Source: Paraburkholderia sp. D15 (GTDB taxonomy: Bacteria; Pseudomonadota; Gammaproteobacteria; Burkholderiales; Burkholderiaceae). From it: DNA of 64,000 bases. Location of the stretch: contig NZ_CP110395.1 in the NCBI RefSeq assembly GCF_029910215.1, positions 3,844,001 through 3,908,000 on the forward strand, given 5' to 3'. This document shows, piece after piece, positions 40,677 through 58,720 of the stretch (its first letter is position 1; each line of letters begins with the position of its first letter). A program made the translations under genes and the position numbers. Under the pieces are notes generated by a model. That model did not search any database and was not told the origin of the DNA. It was given only the letters and a program-made list of their open reading frames with translations.

Positions 40677-42067
40677 GCAGCGCCTCGCGCGGAAAGGGCG
40701 TCGAGCAGCTTTTGATGCACGCCCCCGAAGCCGCCGTTGCTCATCACCAGAATCTGGTCTCCGGGGCGCGCCGCGTGCACCACCGCTTTGACCAGCGCGT
40801 CCAGATTGTCGAATGCCTGCGCCTTGCCGCCGAGCGGCGCGAGCGCTTCGCCGAGATTCCAGCCGAGCGCGTCGCGGCCGGCCGGCGCGCCGTAGCCGAA
40901 TACGAGGTCGGCGTCGGCAAGGCTGGCCGGCAGTTGCGCCTTCATCACGCCCAGCTTCATCGTGTTCGAGCGCGGTTCGAGCACCGCCAGAATGCGCGTA
41001 TTGTCGCGGCCGACGCGCGCGCGCAGGCCGGCCACGGTCGTGTCGATCGCCGTGGGATGGTGCGCGAAGTCGTCGTAGACGGTCACGCCGTCGACGCTGC
41101 CGCGCACTTCCATGCGCCGCTTCACGTTACGGAAGCTGGCGAGCGACTTCGCTGCCTGCGCCGGCGGCACGCCGACATGGCGCGCGGCGGCGATCGCGGC
41201 CAGCGCGTTCATGCGGTTGTGCTCGCCCTGCACCTGCCATTCCACCACGCCGACGCGCTCGCCGCCGTGATACACGGCAAAGCGCTCGTCGACGGGCACG
41301 CCATCTTCCGCCGCACGCGTTTCCCAGCCGCCCTGCACGCCGAAACGCTCCGCTTCGCTCCAGCAACCGCGCGTCAGCACACGCTCCAGCGCGTCTTCGC
41401 GGCCGTTCGTCACGACGCGGCCGATGCCGGGCACGGTGCGGATCAGATGGTGGAACTGCGTTTCGATCGCAGCGAGATCCGGGAAGATGTCGGCATGATC
41501 GAACTCAAGATTGTTCAGGACGGCCGTCTTGGGACGGTAGTGAACGAACTTCGACCGCTTGTCGAAGAACGCCGTGTCGTATTCGTCCGCCTCGATCACG
41601 AAGAAGCTCGAATCGGTCAGCCGCGCCGACACGCCGAAATTGAGCGGCACGCCACCGATCAGGAAACCGGGATTGAGGCCGGCGTCTTCCAGCAGCCAGG
41701 TCAGCATGGAGCTGGTGGTGGTCTTGCCGTGCGTGCCGGCCACCGCCAGCACCCATTTGCCGTTCAGCACGTGCTCGCCGAGCCACTGCGGACCGGATAC
41801 ATACGGCAGGCCGCGGTCGAGAATCGCCTCCATCAGCGGATTGCCGCGCGAGACCACGTTGCCGATCACGAACAGATCGGCGTTCAGTCCGTTCAACTGG
41901 TCCGCGTCGTAACCTTCGGTCAAACCGATACCCTGAGCCTCGAGCTGGGTGCTCATCGGCGGATAGACGCCGGCGTCGCAGCCCGTCACGGTGTGCCCCG
42001 CGCCGCGCGCGAGCACCGCGAGACCGCCCATGAACGTGCCGCAGATACCGAGGATGTGGATGTGCAT
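40673..42067 (-). CDS. mpl: Murein tripeptide ligase Mpl
   Basis: UDP-MurNAc:L-Ala-gamma-D-Glu-meso-DAP ligase, which recycles cell-wall tripeptide. 464 residues: MHIHILGICGTFMGGLAVLARG, ATP loop VAGTHGKTTTSSMLTWLLED, EADEYDTAFFDKRSKFVHYRP (typical for Mpl rather than MurC) and DDFAHHPTAI. ATG start. AmpD at 57741 belongs to the same recycling pathway but is distant. Confidence 0.96.
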   Translation of the reverse strand: MHIHILGICGTFMGGLAVLARGAGHTVTGCDAGVYPPMSTQLEAQGIGLTEGYDADQLNGLNADLFVIGNVVSRGNPLMEAILDRGLPYVSGPQWLGEHVLNGKWVLAVAGTHGKTTTSSMLTWLLEDAGLNPGFLIGGVPLNFGVSARLTDSSFFVIEADEYDTAFFDKRSKFVHYRPKTAVLNNLEFDHADIFPDLAAIETQFHHLIRTVPGIGRVVTNGREDALERVLTRGCWSEAERFGVQGGWETRAAEDGVPVDERFAVYHGGERVGVVEWQVQGEHNRMNALAAIAAARHVGVPPAQAAKSLASFRNVKRRMEVRGSVDGVTVYDDFAHHPTAIDTTVAGLRARVGRDNTRILAVLEPRSNTMKLGVMKAQLPASLADADLVFGYGAPAGRDALGWNLGEALAPLGGKAQAFDNLDALVKAVVHAARPGDQILVMSNGGFGGVHQKLLDALSARGAA

Positions 42068-42262
42068 AAGCCTGTCGTGCCGCGCGGGCGTTTTTGCGAG
42101 GGATGGGAGTGCGCAGCAGCGGCCGGAACGACCGTCTGCGAAGGACGCTATTGTAACCGACGGCTCTCCATCGCCCTACGCGGCCCTGGCCGTTCGGCCA
42201 GCGTGGCGGCTTGCGGCCGGGCGGCGGAAAGTCGCGTCATCAATCTCTAGTATGATTGCCGG

Positions 42263-54188: not shown

Positions 54189-57185
54189 TTACTGGCAGGC
54201 TTCGCACTCGTCGAAGCCGGGGTCGCCCGGACGCATCATGCACACCGGACCATCCGCTTCCGGCGCCGCTTCGACCGCGATCGCCGGCGCTGCCGCCGCC
54301 GCTTGCAGACCACCCGTCGACGCACCGCCGTTCGCACCGAAGCCACCGGCCGCACCACCTGCCGCGCCGCCCGAACCTTCGCCGCCGCCCGAGCTCACTG
54401 CATTCAGCGCGCCGTGCGCGACCGTCGACTTCTCGACGTGCGTCGCCGCCATCGTGCGGAGGTAGTAGGTCGTCTTCAGACCGCGCACCCATGCGAGCTT
54501 GTAGATCTCGTCGAGCTTCTTGCCCGACGCGCCGCCCATGTAGATGTTCAGCGACTGCGCCTGGTCGATCCACTTCTGACGACGCGACGCCGCCTCGACC
54601 AGCCACACCGGATCGAGCTCGAACGCGGTCGCGTAGATCGCGCGCAGGTCGGCCGGAATGCGGTCGATGCGCGACAGCGTGCCGTCGAAGTACTTCAGGT
54701 CGGCGACCATCACTTCGTCCCACAGACCGCGTTCCTTCAGGTCGCGCACCAGGTAGTCGTTGACCACCGTGAATTCGCCCGACAGGTTCGACTTCACATA
54801 CAGGTTCTGGAACGTAGGCTCGATGCAAGCCGACACGCCGATGATGTTCGAGATCGTCGCCGTCGGCGCGATCGCGACGCAGTTCGAGTTGCGCATGCCG
54901 TACTGGGCGATGCGCGAACGCAGTTCGGTCCAGTCCATCGATTCGCTCGCGTCGACTTCGACGTAGCCGCCACGCGCTTCGGCCAGCAGCTTCAGCGAGT
55001 CTTGCGGGAGGATGCCGCGATCCCACAGCGAACCGCGGTAGCTGGAGTAACGGCCGCGCTCCTGCGCCAGTTCCGTCGACGCGTAGTACGCGTAGTAGCA
55101 GACCGCTTCCATCGACGTATCGGCGAACTTGACCGCTTCTTCCGACGCGTACGGCGTGCGCAGCAGATGCAGGCAGTCCTGGAAGCCCATGATGCCCATG
55201 CCGACCGGACGATGCTTCAGGTTCGAATTACGCGCCTTGGCGACCGCGTAGTAGTTGATGTCGATCACGTTGTCGAGCATGCGCATCGCGACGCTGACGG
55301 TGCGCTTGAGCTTTTCGTGGTCGAGCGCCAGCGTGCCGTCGGCCTGTTCCTTCAAGTGCGCGACGAGGTTCACCGAGCCCAGGTTGCAGACGGCGATTTC
55401 GGCGTCGCTGGTGTTCAGCGTGATTTCCGTGCACAGGTTCGACGAGTGGACGACACCGACGTGCTGTTGCGGCGAGCGCACATTGCACGGATCCTTGAAC
55501 GTGATCCACGGGTGGCCGGTTTCGAACAGCATGCCCAACATCTTGCGCCACAGTTGCGCGGCCGGAATCTTCTTGAACAGCTTGATGTCGCCGCGCGCAG
55601 CTTTCTCTTCGTAAGCCGTGTACGCCTTTTCGAAGTCCGCGCCGAACAGGTCGTGCAGGTCCGGGCAGGTGGACGGCGAGAACAGCGTCCAGTCGCCGCC
55701 TTCCATCACGCGCTTCATGAACAGGTCGGGAATCCAGTTCGCCGTGTTCATGTCGTGCGTGCGGCGGCGGTCGTCGCCGGTGTTCTTGCGCAGCTCCAGG
55801 AATTCCTCGATGTCCAAATGCCACGATTCCAGGTACGCGCACACCGCGCCCTTGCGCTTGCCGCCCTGGTTCACCGCGACTGCCGTGTCGTTCACCACCT
55901 TCAGGAACGGCACGACGCCTTGCGACTTGCCGTTGGTGCCCTTGATGTGCGAGCCGAGCGCGCGCACGCGGGTCCAGTCGTTGCCGAGGCCGCCGGCGAA
56001 CTTGGAGAGCAGCGCGTTTTCCTTCAGGGCTTCGTAGATGCTGTCGAGGTCGTCGGCAACGGTCGTCAGATAGCACGACGACAGTTGCGAGCGGTGCGTG
56101 CCCGAGTTGAACAGCGTCGGCGTGGACGACATGAAGTCGAACGACGACAGCACGTTGTAAAACTCGATCGCGCGCGCTTCGCGGTCGATCTCGTTCAGCG
56201 ACAGGCCCATCGCGACGCGCATGAAGAATGCTTGCGGCAGCTCGATGCGCACGCCGTCGTGATGCAGGAAGTAGCGGTCGTACAGCGTTTGCAGACCGAG
56301 GTAGCCGAACTGGAAGTCGCGGTTCGCGTCGAGCGCGGCGCCCAGACGCTTCAGGTCGAACTGTTGCAGCTTGTCGTCCAGCAGGCCGGCGTCGACGCCG
56401 CGCTTGATGAACTGCGGGAAGTACTCGACGTAGCGCTCGCCCATTTCGGCCTGCGTGACTTCCTCTTCGAGGATCTCGCGGCGGATGGTGTGCAGCAGGA
56501 TGCGCGCGGTGACCTGGCTGTATGCCGGGTCCTTCTCGATCATCGTGCGGGCGGCCAGAATCGCCGAGTCGTAGACCTGGCTCATCGGCACGCCGTCGTA
56601 CAGATTCTTGACCGTTTCCGCGATGATCGGATCGGCGCTCACCGCGTCGCCCAGGTTCGCGCACGCGGATTCGATGATGCCGCGCAGCGCGGCCAGATCC
56701 AGCGGACGCGTGACGCCGTTGTCCGTGACGTTCAGACCCGGCGTGCTGGCCACCACCTGCTCGTCGTGACCGCGCGCCTGCGTGCGCTTCTCGCGATACA
56801 GCACGTACGCACGCGCGACGTTGTGCTCGCCGCCGCGCATGAGCGCGAGTTCGACCTGATCCTGAATGTCTTCGATATGGAACGTGCCGCCGTTCGGACG
56901 GCTGCGCACCAGCGCGCGCACCACGTTCTGCGTGAGTTGCTCGACCAGTTCGCGCACCCGCGCCGACGCCGCGCCCTGACCGCCGTTGACGGCGAGGAAC
57001 GCCTTCGTCACGGCGATCGCGATTTTCGACGGCTCGAACGACACGACGCTGCCATTGCGGCGGATCACCCTGTAGTCGGCGTAGGTCGCTTGCGGCGCGA
57101 GCGCCGGAGCGCCTTGTGCCTGGCCGAAGGCCTGGCCAGTCGATGAACCCTCGTAGCGGGTCGTCGCGTTGTCGGTGGTTTGCAT
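54189..57185 (-). CDS. nrdA: Ribonucleotide reductase alpha subunit, class Ia, with ATP cones
   Basis: Reduces NDPs to dNDPs with NrdB. 998 residues from the ATG at 57185 (AGGAG eight bases upstream). An N-terminal ATP-cone (VIRRNGSVVSFEPSKIAIAVTKAF to about 140) is followed by a probable second cone (about 155-250), as in long Pseudomonas-type NrdA. The catalytic barrel follows with NLCTEITLNTSDAEIAVCNLGSVNL. The tail is a Gly/Ala linker ending in FDECEACQ, the redox-active Cys pair. Longer than E. coli NrdA (761). A frame continues upstream but is leader RNA. Confidence 0.96.
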   Translation of the reverse strand: MQTTDNATTRYEGSSTGQAFGQAQGAPALAPQATYADYRVIRRNGSVVSFEPSKIAIAVTKAFLAVNGGQGAASARVRELVEQLTQNVVRALVRSRPNGGTFHIEDIQDQVELALMRGGEHNVARAYVLYREKRTQARGHDEQVVASTPGLNVTDNGVTRPLDLAALRGIIESACANLGDAVSADPIIAETVKNLYDGVPMSQVYDSAILAARTMIEKDPAYSQVTARILLHTIRREILEEEVTQAEMGERYVEYFPQFIKRGVDAGLLDDKLQQFDLKRLGAALDANRDFQFGYLGLQTLYDRYFLHHDGVRIELPQAFFMRVAMGLSLNEIDREARAIEFYNVLSSFDFMSSTPTLFNSGTHRSQLSSCYLTTVADDLDSIYEALKENALLSKFAGGLGNDWTRVRALGSHIKGTNGKSQGVVPFLKVVNDTAVAVNQGGKRKGAVCAYLESWHLDIEEFLELRKNTGDDRRRTHDMNTANWIPDLFMKRVMEGGDWTLFSPSTCPDLHDLFGADFEKAYTAYEEKAARGDIKLFKKIPAAQLWRKMLGMLFETGHPWITFKDPCNVRSPQQHVGVVHSSNLCTEITLNTSDAEIAVCNLGSVNLVAHLKEQADGTLALDHEKLKRTVSVAMRMLDNVIDINYYAVAKARNSNLKHRPVGMGIMGFQDCLHLLRTPYASEEAVKFADTSMEAVCYYAYYASTELAQERGRYSSYRGSLWDRGILPQDSLKLLAEARGGYVEVDASESMDWTELRSRIAQYGMRNSNCVAIAPTATISNIIGVSACIEPTFQNLYVKSNLSGEFTVVNDYLVRDLKERGLWDEVMVADLKYFDGTLSRIDRIPADLRAIYATAFELDPVWLVEAASRRQKWIDQAQSLNIYMGGASGKKLDEIYKLAWVRGLKTTYYLRTMAATHVEKSTVAHGALNAVSSGGGEGSGGAAGGAAGGFGANGGASTGGLQAAAAAPAIAVEAAPEADGPVCMMRPGDPGFDECEACQ

Positions 57186-57495
57186 GTGCAAAGCTCCTGG
57201 TCCTGGAAATGGTGCGGGGGAAGGCCGCGGATTAAAACGAACGCTGCGCCGCCGCGAGCGCAAGCGATGAGGTGCAGGAAGAAGGCCGGCCAAGCCAGCT
57301 GGCGGGATGCGACTGCGATGAAGCCTGATTCGAATTGACGACGGTCTTCAACGTGCGTGTCGCGATCACTTGCCAAGCCCCTTTCCTGAATGCTTCTTGG
57401 ATGCCGCCGGTGGTCTCGCCGGCCGCGCGACAGGAATCTTTTTTCTCTGCCCGGAATGCTTGCGGCGCCGTACTCGGAGAGCGGGGCGCCGCGAC
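57186..57495 (-). other. Long untranslated nrdA leader
   Basis: From the predicted start near 57588 to the nrdA ATG the leader is about 400 bases. A 103-codon frame at 57065-57376 runs into nrdA and lacks gene-like features. No clear terminator or riboswitch fold seen. Confidence 0.4.
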
Positions 57496-57555
57496 TTATC
57501 CACTCAGTTGTGCACCCGGTTATTCACACGGTTATGCACACGGTTATGCACAGCA
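57496..57555 (+). promoter_or_regulatory. Array of five DnaA-box-like sites with a 12-bp period
   Basis: TTATCCACT (57496), TTGTGCACC (57508), TTATTCACA (57520), TTATGCACA (57532) and TTATGCACA (57544), each starting exactly 12 bases after the last and separated mostly by CGG. Three match the consensus TTATnCACA. All point the same way, against nrdA transcription, and lie downstream of the predicted nrdA start site. Confidence 0.8.
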
Positions 57556-57557
57556 CC

Positions 57558-57573
57558 ACACAAGATGTAGTGC
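57558..57573. promoter_or_regulatory. NrdR box 1 upstream of nrdA
   Basis: ACACAAGATGTAGTGC agrees with the NrdR consensus ACACAATATATTGTGT at 12 of 16 positions by hand count. It starts exactly 31 bases from box 2, the spacing expected for NrdR. Confidence 0.75.
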
Positions 57574-57588
57574 AAAACTGATTTCTCG

Positions 57589-57604
57589 GCACCAAGTATA
57601 GTGG
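57589..57604. promoter_or_regulatory. NrdR box 2, overlapping the nrdA -10
   Basis: GCACCAAGTATAGTGG, 10 of 16 to the consensus by hand count. It covers the predicted -10, so NrdR binding should block RNA polymerase. Confidence 0.7.
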
Positions 57605-57622
57605 ATATTCAAGACAGGTCAA
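57595..57622 (-). promoter_or_regulatory. Predicted sigma-70 promoter of nrdA
   Basis: Minus strand: TTGACC (57622-57617), 16 bases, TATACT (57600-57595). Start site expected near 57588. Confidence 0.7.
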
Positions 57623-57683
57623 ATCGATTTATTTGGCCCGCCGGGGTTGACTTTTCATATCGCGCGCGGCGACGGGACCTCGC

Positions 57684-57710
57684 GGAGAACGAGGCTGCGC
57701 CTTGTTCTCC
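57684..57710. other. Strong hairpin after ampD
   Basis: GGAGAACGAGGC, TGC, GCCTTGTTCTCC: a 12-bp stem with one G.U pair. It lies 31 bases after the ampD stop but has no T run on minus; perhaps a terminator without the usual tail. Confidence 0.5.
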
Positions 57711-57740
57711 GAGCATCGCGCGCGATTGCGCGAAGTGCCG

Positions 57741-58397
57741 TTACGGCGTCGCGGAAAACTTGAGATAGGGGAAATACCGAGCGTCGAGCGCGGTGTCCCG
57801 CTGCAGACGTTGCCACTCGAAATGGGGACCGGGATCGGTCTTGCGGCCAGGCGCGATGTCCGAGTGACCGGCGAGCGCCGCGACCGGATAGCGGGTCTTC
57901 AACGCGTTCACGAGCGTGCCGAGGGTGCGGTATTGCGCCGCTTCGAAGGCCGTGGTGTCACTGCCCTCCAGCTCGATGCCGATGGAGAAATCGTTGCAGC
58001 GCTCGCGGCCGAAAAAATTCGACGGCCCCGCGTGCCACGCGCGCTCGTTGCACGACACGAACTGCTCGAGCGTGCCGTCGCGATGAATCACGAAGTGCGC
58101 GGAGACGCGCACGCCGCGCAGATGGGTGTCGTAGTACGGGTGCGCGTCGCAGTCGAGCGTGTTGAGGAACAGCTCGGCGATCGCCGTACCGCCGAACTCG
58201 TTCGGCGGCAGGCTGATGTTGTGCACGACGATCAGCGTCGGCTCGGCGCCGGCCGGTCGCGCTTCGAAATTCGGCGAGGGGAGTTTGCGGGCGGCGTCGA
58301 CCCAGCCGCCGGCATCGACGGTGAAGCCGGTGTCGGCGCTGACGTCGGGATTGACTTCCGGATTGATGCCGGCGCCGACGTTCGCGTCGACGCTCAT
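57741..58397 (-). CDS. ampD: 1,6-anhydro-N-acetylmuramyl-L-alanine amidase AmpD
   Basis: Cytosolic zinc amidase that removes the peptide from 1,6-anhydro-muropeptides in cell-wall recycling; its loss often derepresses AmpC-type beta-lactamase. 218 residues from the ATG at 58397. Zinc ligands: His59 in LIVVHNISLPP and the His/Asp of AGHSDIAPGRKTDPGPHFEW; also VSAHFVIHRDG, SCNERAWHAG and FSIGIELEG. It overlaps the PP0621-like gene by 4 bases, so it is last in a three-gene message with the CcsA-type gene. Confidence 0.96.
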   Translation of the reverse strand: MSVDANVGAGINPEVNPDVSADTGFTVDAGGWVDAARKLPSPNFEARPAGAEPTLIVVHNISLPPNEFGGTAIAELFLNTLDCDAHPYYDTHLRGVRVSAHFVIHRDGTLEQFVSCNERAWHAGPSNFFGRERCNDFSIGIELEGSDTTAFEAAQYRTLGTLVNALKTRYPVAALAGHSDIAPGRKTDPGPHFEWQRLQRDTALDARYFPYLKFSATP

Positions 58398-58720
58398 CGA
58401 GCGTCGCGGCCCGACGGTCGCGCGCCGTGACGCTGAGCGTGCGCCGAGCTGCAGAACGCTTGCCCGGCCACCACCACGGAATCGCTCTTCGGCGCGTGCA
58501 CGCCGCATTCGGTGCAACGGATCATCGGCTCGGCGAGTTGCGGCTGCGCGGCGCCGTTCGGTCCGGCATGGCCTCTACTATTAGTAGCACCCGCGGCGCC
58601 ATTCGCGCCGCTGCCCGCGTTACCCGAACGCTGCGCGGTTTGCGCGTCGTGACGGCGCAGCGCCTTGACCAGCCATTGACCGACGATGAACAACAGGATC
58701 AGCAGAAAAATTTGTCGCAT
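58394..58720 (-). CDS. PP0621-family small membrane protein with Cys motif
   Basis: 108 residues: one N-terminal membrane segment (IFLLILLFIVGQWLV), a Gly/Asn/Ala-rich middle and a C-terminal zinc-ribbon-like part MIRCTECGVHAPKSDSVVVAGQAFCSSAHAQRH with a CxxC and a Cys/His pair. Function unknown. ATG start 10 bases after the CcsA-type stop; overlaps ampD. Confidence 0.85.
   Translation of the reverse strand: MRQIFLLILLFIVGQWLVKALRRHDAQTAQRSGNAGSGANGAAGATNSRGHAGPNGAAQPQLAEPMIRCTECGVHAPKSDSVVVAGQAFCSSAHAQRHGARPSGRDAR

Follow-up and report, generated by a model that had tools for sequence, protein, structure and literature searches.

The nrdA control region in a large group of soil bacteria likely holds a row of docking sites for DnaA, the initiator of DNA replication. 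On the sequence evidence, this row is a real and constrained array of DnaA-type boxes, and represents a lineage-specific and strongly conserved variant of the known DnaA control of ribonucleotide reductase. Its sites are set at a regular pitch and in a fixed geometry, are constrained, are nearly unique in the genomes that hold them, and are spread throughout one clade in a pattern that fits a single gain. The most probable role of the array, to which we assign a probability of about 0.6, is that of a DnaA operator in the predicted transcribed leader of nrdAB, at which an assembly of ATP-DnaA would brake nrdAB beside NrdR.

Layout of the nrdA control region

The array lies in the window (the whole 64-kb stretch of DNA that was analysed) between nrdA and the ORF that precedes it at 57741-58517, which by eye resembles an AmpD-type amidase. 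The predicted promoter and the NrdR boxes are found in the same interval, and the region is composed of the following features:

54189..57185, minus strand: nrdA, encoding the large subunit of class Ia ribonucleotide reductase (998 aa; start codon ATG at 57185; name recognised from sequence)
57186..57588, minus strand: predicted nrdA 5' leader, about 403 nt, placed from the predicted promoter and start
57462..57492, minus strand: GC-rich hairpin of the leader, GCGGCGCC..GGCGCCGC, adjoining the array on its downstream side
57496..57504, plus strand: DnaA-like box unit 5, TTATCCACT, 1 mismatch
57508..57516, plus strand: DnaA-like box unit 4, TTGTGCACC, 2 mismatches
57520..57528, plus strand: DnaA box unit 3, TTATTCACA, nonamer match
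57532..57540, plus strand: DnaA box unit 2, TTATGCACA, specified positions intact in 71/71 arrays
57544..57552, plus strand: DnaA box unit 1, nearest the promoter, TTATGCACA, specified positions intact in 70/71 arrays
57558..57573, minus strand: NrdR box 2, GCACTACATCTTGTGT, NrdR-like 16-mer 31 bp from box 1
57589..57604, minus strand: NrdR box 1, CCACTATACTTGGTGC, NrdR-like 16-mer overlapping the -10
57595..57600, minus strand: predicted -10 hexamer TATACT, invariant in 142/142 leaders
57617..57622, minus strand: predicted -35 hexamer TTGACC, varying within the genus

The earlier note had described five DnaA-box-like nonamers facing one direction at a 12-base step, and both their coordinates (57496-57552) and their exact pitch were confirmed. 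The nonamers lie on the plus strand, with nrdA itself on the minus strand, and on the sense strand of nrdA they read TGTGNATAA. Three of them match TTATNCACA exactly, one differs at one position and one at two, and TRF reports a repeat of period 12 with 4.8 copies across the same interval. The array begins 5 bp beyond NrdR box 2, downstream of the predicted promoter, a sigma-70-like TTGACC-16-TATACT on the minus strand (57622-57595; 10/12 consensus matches). Transcription is predicted to start at about 57588, which would place the array at about +37 to +93, in line with the earlier suggestion that the DnaA sites lie past the start in a leader of roughly 400 bases. A mapped nrdA start for Burkholderia was sought in the main text of PMC4603805, where a word search for "nrd" gave no match.

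The two NrdR-like boxes, previously said to lie 31 bases apart with one covering the -10, were recovered at 57558-57573 and 57589-57604. NrdR is encoded in the same genome (C1:723718; TIGR00244, 195 bits against a cut-off of 125), and the combination of two predicted boxes, a 15-16 bp linker, a ribonucleotide reductase promoter and an NrdR gene is that of a putative NrdR-regulon promoter.

The hairpin bordering the array was predicted in 28/28 folded leaders chosen from the 142 described below, all from outside the G026 type, whose sequence differs at this site; its loops were altered and some stem pairs changed. It was found in leaders with the array and in leaders lacking it. An Rfam search of 56900-57800 returned no family at gathering score, and a mir-228 match outside the array (23.8 bits against a gathering score of 45) was taken as chance.

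Rarity, distribution and constraint of the boxes

Exact TTATNCACA nonamers occur four times in the window, three of them in the array, as compared with 0.18 expected, and none of 100 shuffles reached four; a lone exact box, TTATGCACA, occurs at 42061-42069 on the minus strand. A search for box pairs at a 12-bp step that allowed up to 3 mismatches likewise gave four matches, all of them in the array (0.03 expected; 0/100 shuffles reach four). Across the whole 8.33-Mb genome, two exact same-direction boxes 0-30 bp apart were found nowhere except in the array, and four further 12-bp box pairs carry 1-2 mismatches each (L033, L034, L036 and L037). Two of these, L034 and L036, have TGTGGATAACT(C/T)TGTTGAGAAC in common; L036, which by eye sits between priA-like and hemE-like ORFs about 100 kb from dnaA, is perhaps an origin-like site. 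The 1,999 bases scanned at the dnaA start for the origin of this genome hold one box (up to 1 mismatch) and no such array.

Units 1 and 2 face the same direction, match TTATNCACA and are separated by a 3-bp spacer, and thus form a double box, which is perfect in 70/71 arrays. When 144 genomes of the genus were searched for this perfect 12-bp double box, TTATNCACANNNTTATNCACA, with no mismatch allowed, 72 matches were found, 71 of which sit in the nrdA leaders of 70 genomes (the genome of the window has two that overlap); a reversed-pattern control gave 0 matches. In these 70 genomes, therefore, the nrdA leader has the sole perfect 12-bp double box. The remaining match lies elsewhere in G146, whose nrdA leader is array-less and which is alone among the array-less genomes in having a perfect double box at another place. 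G110, in which the first unit has one mismatch, falls outside this count.

Leaders were located in the same 144 genomes by the -10 motif ACTATACTT, with one mismatch allowed, and 142 were analysed (G145 gave no match and G146 no start-codon anchor). The motif is unchanged in 142/142 leaders, the cores of both NrdR boxes are retained, and the core letters of NrdR box 2 are kept in all of them, bar one letter in one genome; the NrdR boxes are offset by 31 bp according to the alignment columns, with the box motif matched in 140/142 leaders. The array is present in 71/142 leaders, P. xenovorans LB400 (L048) among them, and not in the other 71. It has 3 units in 43 leaders, 4 in 22, 5 in 4, 6 in one and 7 in one, numbers that take in weak units, since arrays were called from a perfect box as seed with later units allowed up to 3 mismatches. 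All 71 arrays keep the 12-bp step between units 1 and 2, and all begin at a distance of 4-6 bp from the NrdR core. Because calling needs a perfect seed box, decayed arrays are scored as absent, and apparent degenerate traces of an array are seen in the array-less G029, G113 and G155. In most other array-less leaders a few bases separate NrdR box 2 from the hairpin; in G059, G082 and G098 some additional bases of unrelated sequence follow NrdR box 2.

Outside the genus, the 12-bp TTATNCACA array is absent from 60 loci in 20 other genera of the family, a sample made up of 20 leaders of 4 genera and 40 loci of 18 genera; the promoter motif was found in 20/20 of the leaders and 36/40 of the loci, and in none of the other 4/40. 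A further 10 loci sampled together with the 20 leaders belong to the same genus as the window and are outside this count. An array ancestral in the family is unsupported by these loci. The comparison across Burkholderiaceae that the earlier note had called for shows an array that is not family-wide and that half of the genus lacks. In 2 of the 3 genomes examined of one other genus, g40 (L347 and L371; G182 and G217), NrdR box 2 is immediately followed by about four GGGATAA-like repeats at an 11-bp pitch, as counted by eye, which could be an independent but weaker DnaA array.

On an IQ-TREE phylogeny built from 966 nrdA columns, in which many inner branches are weak, the array label requires 5 changes, as compared with a mean of 47.7 for shuffled labels, and 0/500 shuffles were as low. 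A FastTree phylogeny that included 12 rows from four other genera also gave 5 changes. Here the 71 array genomes fall within a clade of 75, in which the only array-less members are G004, G029, G113 and G155, so the simplest history that fits is one gain and four losses. Counts of fewest changes cannot by themselves separate gain from loss; the gain is read from the array-less state of the other genera, whose rows do not group as a single clade in this phylogeny. Loss of the boxes in close relatives, which the earlier note regarded as evidence against its idea, is thus seen in part, both in the half of the genus without the array and in the four losses inside the array clade.

Substitutions counted on the tree in the 71 arrays reveal which positions of the boxes are held (unit 1: 1,0,0,0,17,0,0,0,0, linker 1,12,19; unit 2: 0,0,0,0,14,0,0,0,0, linker 0,10,10). 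Whereas the N and the final two bases of the linker vary freely, the eight specified positions of each box are frozen and the linker's first base nearly so; the 16 specified positions of units 1-2 took 1 substitution and their six free positions 82. A profile based on the FastTree phylogeny was almost equal. By comparison, the 5 bases of the spacer preceding unit 1 took 8, 19, 17, 15 and 10 steps (mean 13.8), a scale limited to these five columns because columns -6 to -25 are out of register between genomes with 5-bp and 6-bp gaps and were left out, and the 277 downstream leader columns took a mean of 3.3 steps, with 28.5% unchanged. Since units 1-2 comprise only 18 different 21-mers in the 71 genomes, tree changes and not raw frequencies were taken as the test. 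The contrast of 1 with 82 substitutions, together with the near-uniqueness of the double box, indicates that units 1-2 are under selection for DnaA binding and are not a neutral repeat. The expectation that the 12-bp phase would be kept while other bases drift is thus borne out for units 1-2. Unit 3 is looser (11,0,0,0,11,2,12,0,4), the commonest nonamer from unit 3 on is a weaker box, AGTGCATAA (37/108), and past unit 3 the step sometimes slips (10 bp in G030). The regularity reported earlier therefore stands for the exact pitch in the window and not for the units, which are unequal: from unit 3 on the sequence, the number and sometimes the step vary, and only the two units adjoining NrdR are invariant.

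Domain IV of the DnaA encoded by the same genome aligns to that of E. coli (1j1v; E 8.3e-31), with identical ARPRQ and GGRDHTTV segments, which we take to be those that contact the box. Four identical-scoring weak Bac_DnaA matches in this genome (C1:14896, 258612 and 2678679; C3:479988) lie in 276-aa frames that are probably repeated insertion-sequence helper genes of the IstB type.

Three-box 12-bp arrays were also sought in GTDB species contigs, which gave at least 116 stretches. Among the matches listed, 21 lie at nrdA, 20 of them in records with Paraburkholderia in the title and one in a Burkholderia record; the fetched stretch includes a dnaA-like gene in 31 cases and neither gene in 64. 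One or two neighbouring genes were examined for 28 of these at least 64 stretches: three adjoin nrdD and one more an nrdG-like ORF (all four in Clostridial MAGs), one is next to dnaN, and the rest have varied neighbours, such as alkaline phosphatase (three Chryseobacterium records) or conjugation genes, or none that was recognised. Since such arrays are also found next to unrelated genes in other phyla, the presence of one is by itself no proof of origin function or of control of ribonucleotide reductase. The Clostridial cases consist of three perfect TTATCCACA boxes at a 12-bp pitch (L038:1941-1973, L118:2983-3015, L074:677-709 and L088:5828-5860, in Mogibacterium and Clostridiales MAGs). They lie directly past nrdD in L038, L118 and L074, and in L038, L118 and L088 they precede a small ORF, judged by eye, and a radical-SAM ORF that resembles nrdG. 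These arrays by class III ribonucleotide reductase genes appear to link DnaA arrays with ribonucleotide reductase a second time, independently of the nrdA leaders.

Possible roles of the array

In the reading that we favor, units 1-2 would act as a high-affinity double DnaA box on which a dimer of DnaA would sit, at 5 bp from NrdR box 2, and the units from the third onward as weaker sites along which ATP-DnaA would extend head to tail, away from the promoter. When ATP-DnaA is plentiful, the resulting assembly, spanning about +37 to +93, would block the departing RNA polymerase and/or stabilise repression by NrdR; a roadblock action has been described for DnaA bound within transcribed DNA (excerpts of PMC11317965), and nrdAB of E. 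coli is repressed by high DnaA-ATP (excerpts of PMC8203912). As ATP-DnaA falls after initiation, the brake on nrdAB would be released, and nrdAB would read the nucleotide state (through NrdR) and the replication state (through DnaA) side by side. In this account we infer DnaA binding, its ATP dependence, repression as the sign of the effect, and the start site. Half of the genus is without the array, and control of nrdAB therefore does not need it. The array may couple dNTP supply to the initiation of replication, as suggested earlier; in E. coli, DnaA seems to set the level of nrdAB, not necessarily its timing, and whether DnaA control of ribonucleotide reductase provides such coupling is unsettled (excerpts of PMC8203912).

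An unlikely but serious alternative is that the array is an activating DnaA operator, in which DnaA on units 1-2 displaces NrdR or aids RNA polymerase and thereby raises nrdAB. Some of the data from E. coli, taken by analogy, point this way and speak against a brake: nrdA is listed there among the positively regulated DnaA targets (excerpts of PMC11317965 and PMC12371093), and nrdAB is activated by low DnaA-ATP or by DnaA-ADP (excerpts of PMC8203912). Moreover, unit 1, at 4-6 bp from the NrdR core, is near enough for exclusion. In E. coli, however, the NrdR boxes come after the DnaA pair, and sites within a transcribed region would fit a block better.

We consider it improbable that the array serves to titrate DnaA or, like datA, to inactivate it, came to lie at nrdA by chance and acts on replication timing, not on nrdAB. 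All its boxes face one direction, as do the essential DnaA boxes of datA (excerpts of PMC5742627), and it is nearly the sole perfect double box in these genomes, but three to seven boxes seem few for titration, and a mere sink would not need a start fixed at 4-6 bp from the NrdR core in 71/71 arrays. An action in the RNA leader, as a binding site or structure, and not in DNA is more improbable still: the array is probably within the transcript and beside a conserved hairpin, but its constraint profile is that of a DnaA box with a free N, its surroundings gave no Rfam family at gathering score, and the hairpin is present with or without the array. Least credible is a neutral tandem repeat of 12 bp with a chance likeness to DnaA boxes. 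The variation in unit number (3-7) and the four identical units in a row in G111 show that slippage does occur, and the explanation may be partly true from unit 3 onward; slippage, however, cannot spare exactly the positions read by DnaA while the N varies, and the substitution profile contradicts the explanation for units 1-2.

If the array is a brake, it is a tentative possibility that the Paraburkholderia clade has rewired nrdAB, with an ATP-DnaA track behind the NrdR operator forming a composite leader brake tunable by unit number, and that ribonucleotide reductase genes have recruited such arrays repeatedly. The suggestion of repeated recruitment comes from the Clostridial class III arrays and the 11-bp-pitch repeat of g40; if true, it would be a case of convergent evolution of replication control over dNTP supply. 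The genus also offers a natural experiment, in which a candidate DnaA operator is present in 71 nrdA leaders and absent from 71 others while the promoter is largely unchanged, and to which the four apparent losses inside the array clade add. Leaders with the site, for example that of P. xenovorans LB400, and leaders without it would allow the coupling of DnaA to ribonucleotide reductase to be compared.

Comparison with known DnaA and NrdR systems

In vivo, most binding of E. coli DnaA is to paired boxes with 2 or 3 bp between them, and it binds such a pair, TTATCCACAaagTTATGCACT, at nrdA (excerpts of PMC11317965). That DnaA reads boxes in pairs with a 3-bp spacer is a rule to which the constraint on units 1-2 adds evolutionary support. 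The claim that the array was undescribed accordingly falls for the 12-bp step, which is already known from the E. coli double DnaA box (excerpts of PMC11317965), and holds for its place past NrdR box 2, its 3-7 regular units and their reversed direction: in the open-licence literature, mostly as titles and abstracts, we found no description of this arrangement. For DnaA with ribonucleotide reductase in Paraburkholderia, no paper was found in the open-licence literature.

As in the arrays of oriC and datA, same-direction boxes lie 2-4 bp apart and strong sites have weaker neighbours (excerpts of PMC5742627). Unlike them, the array of the window lies in the leader of a metabolic gene, and one of its flanks is a GC-rich hairpin.

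The NrdR pair resembles that of E. coli in its two 16-bp boxes, its 15-bp linker and its position at the promoter (boxes 1 and 2 of E. coli nrdAB are 15 bp apart; excerpts of PMC12176259), and differs from it in that box 1 of the window coincides with the -10. In MG1655, the best NrdR-like box upstream of nrdA is at -93 and a weak second one (10/16 matches) at -62, 31 bp further, and the DnaA pair spans -162 to -142 relative to the ATG. Three DnaA boxes, one of them specific for DnaA-ATP, are described for E. coli nrdAB (excerpts of PMC8203912); the third, DnaA-ATP-specific box was not found at MG1655 nrdA with up to 1 mismatch.

With E. coli nrdAB the window thus shares the gene, the 12-bp pitch with its 3-bp spacer, near-identical boxes, and NrdR boxes 31 bp apart nearby. 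The order of these parts differs: in E. coli nrdAB control the DnaA pair comes before the NrdR boxes and the promoter region, a layout not shown by the array, which is downstream of the predicted promoter and of NrdR box 2. The E. coli pair also faces the opposite way relative to nrdA, and is a single pair where arrays of the window type have 3-7 regular units beyond NrdR box 2. The MG1655 positions therefore indicate that the window has the same parts reordered: a promoter with NrdR boxes, followed by reversed and extended DnaA boxes.
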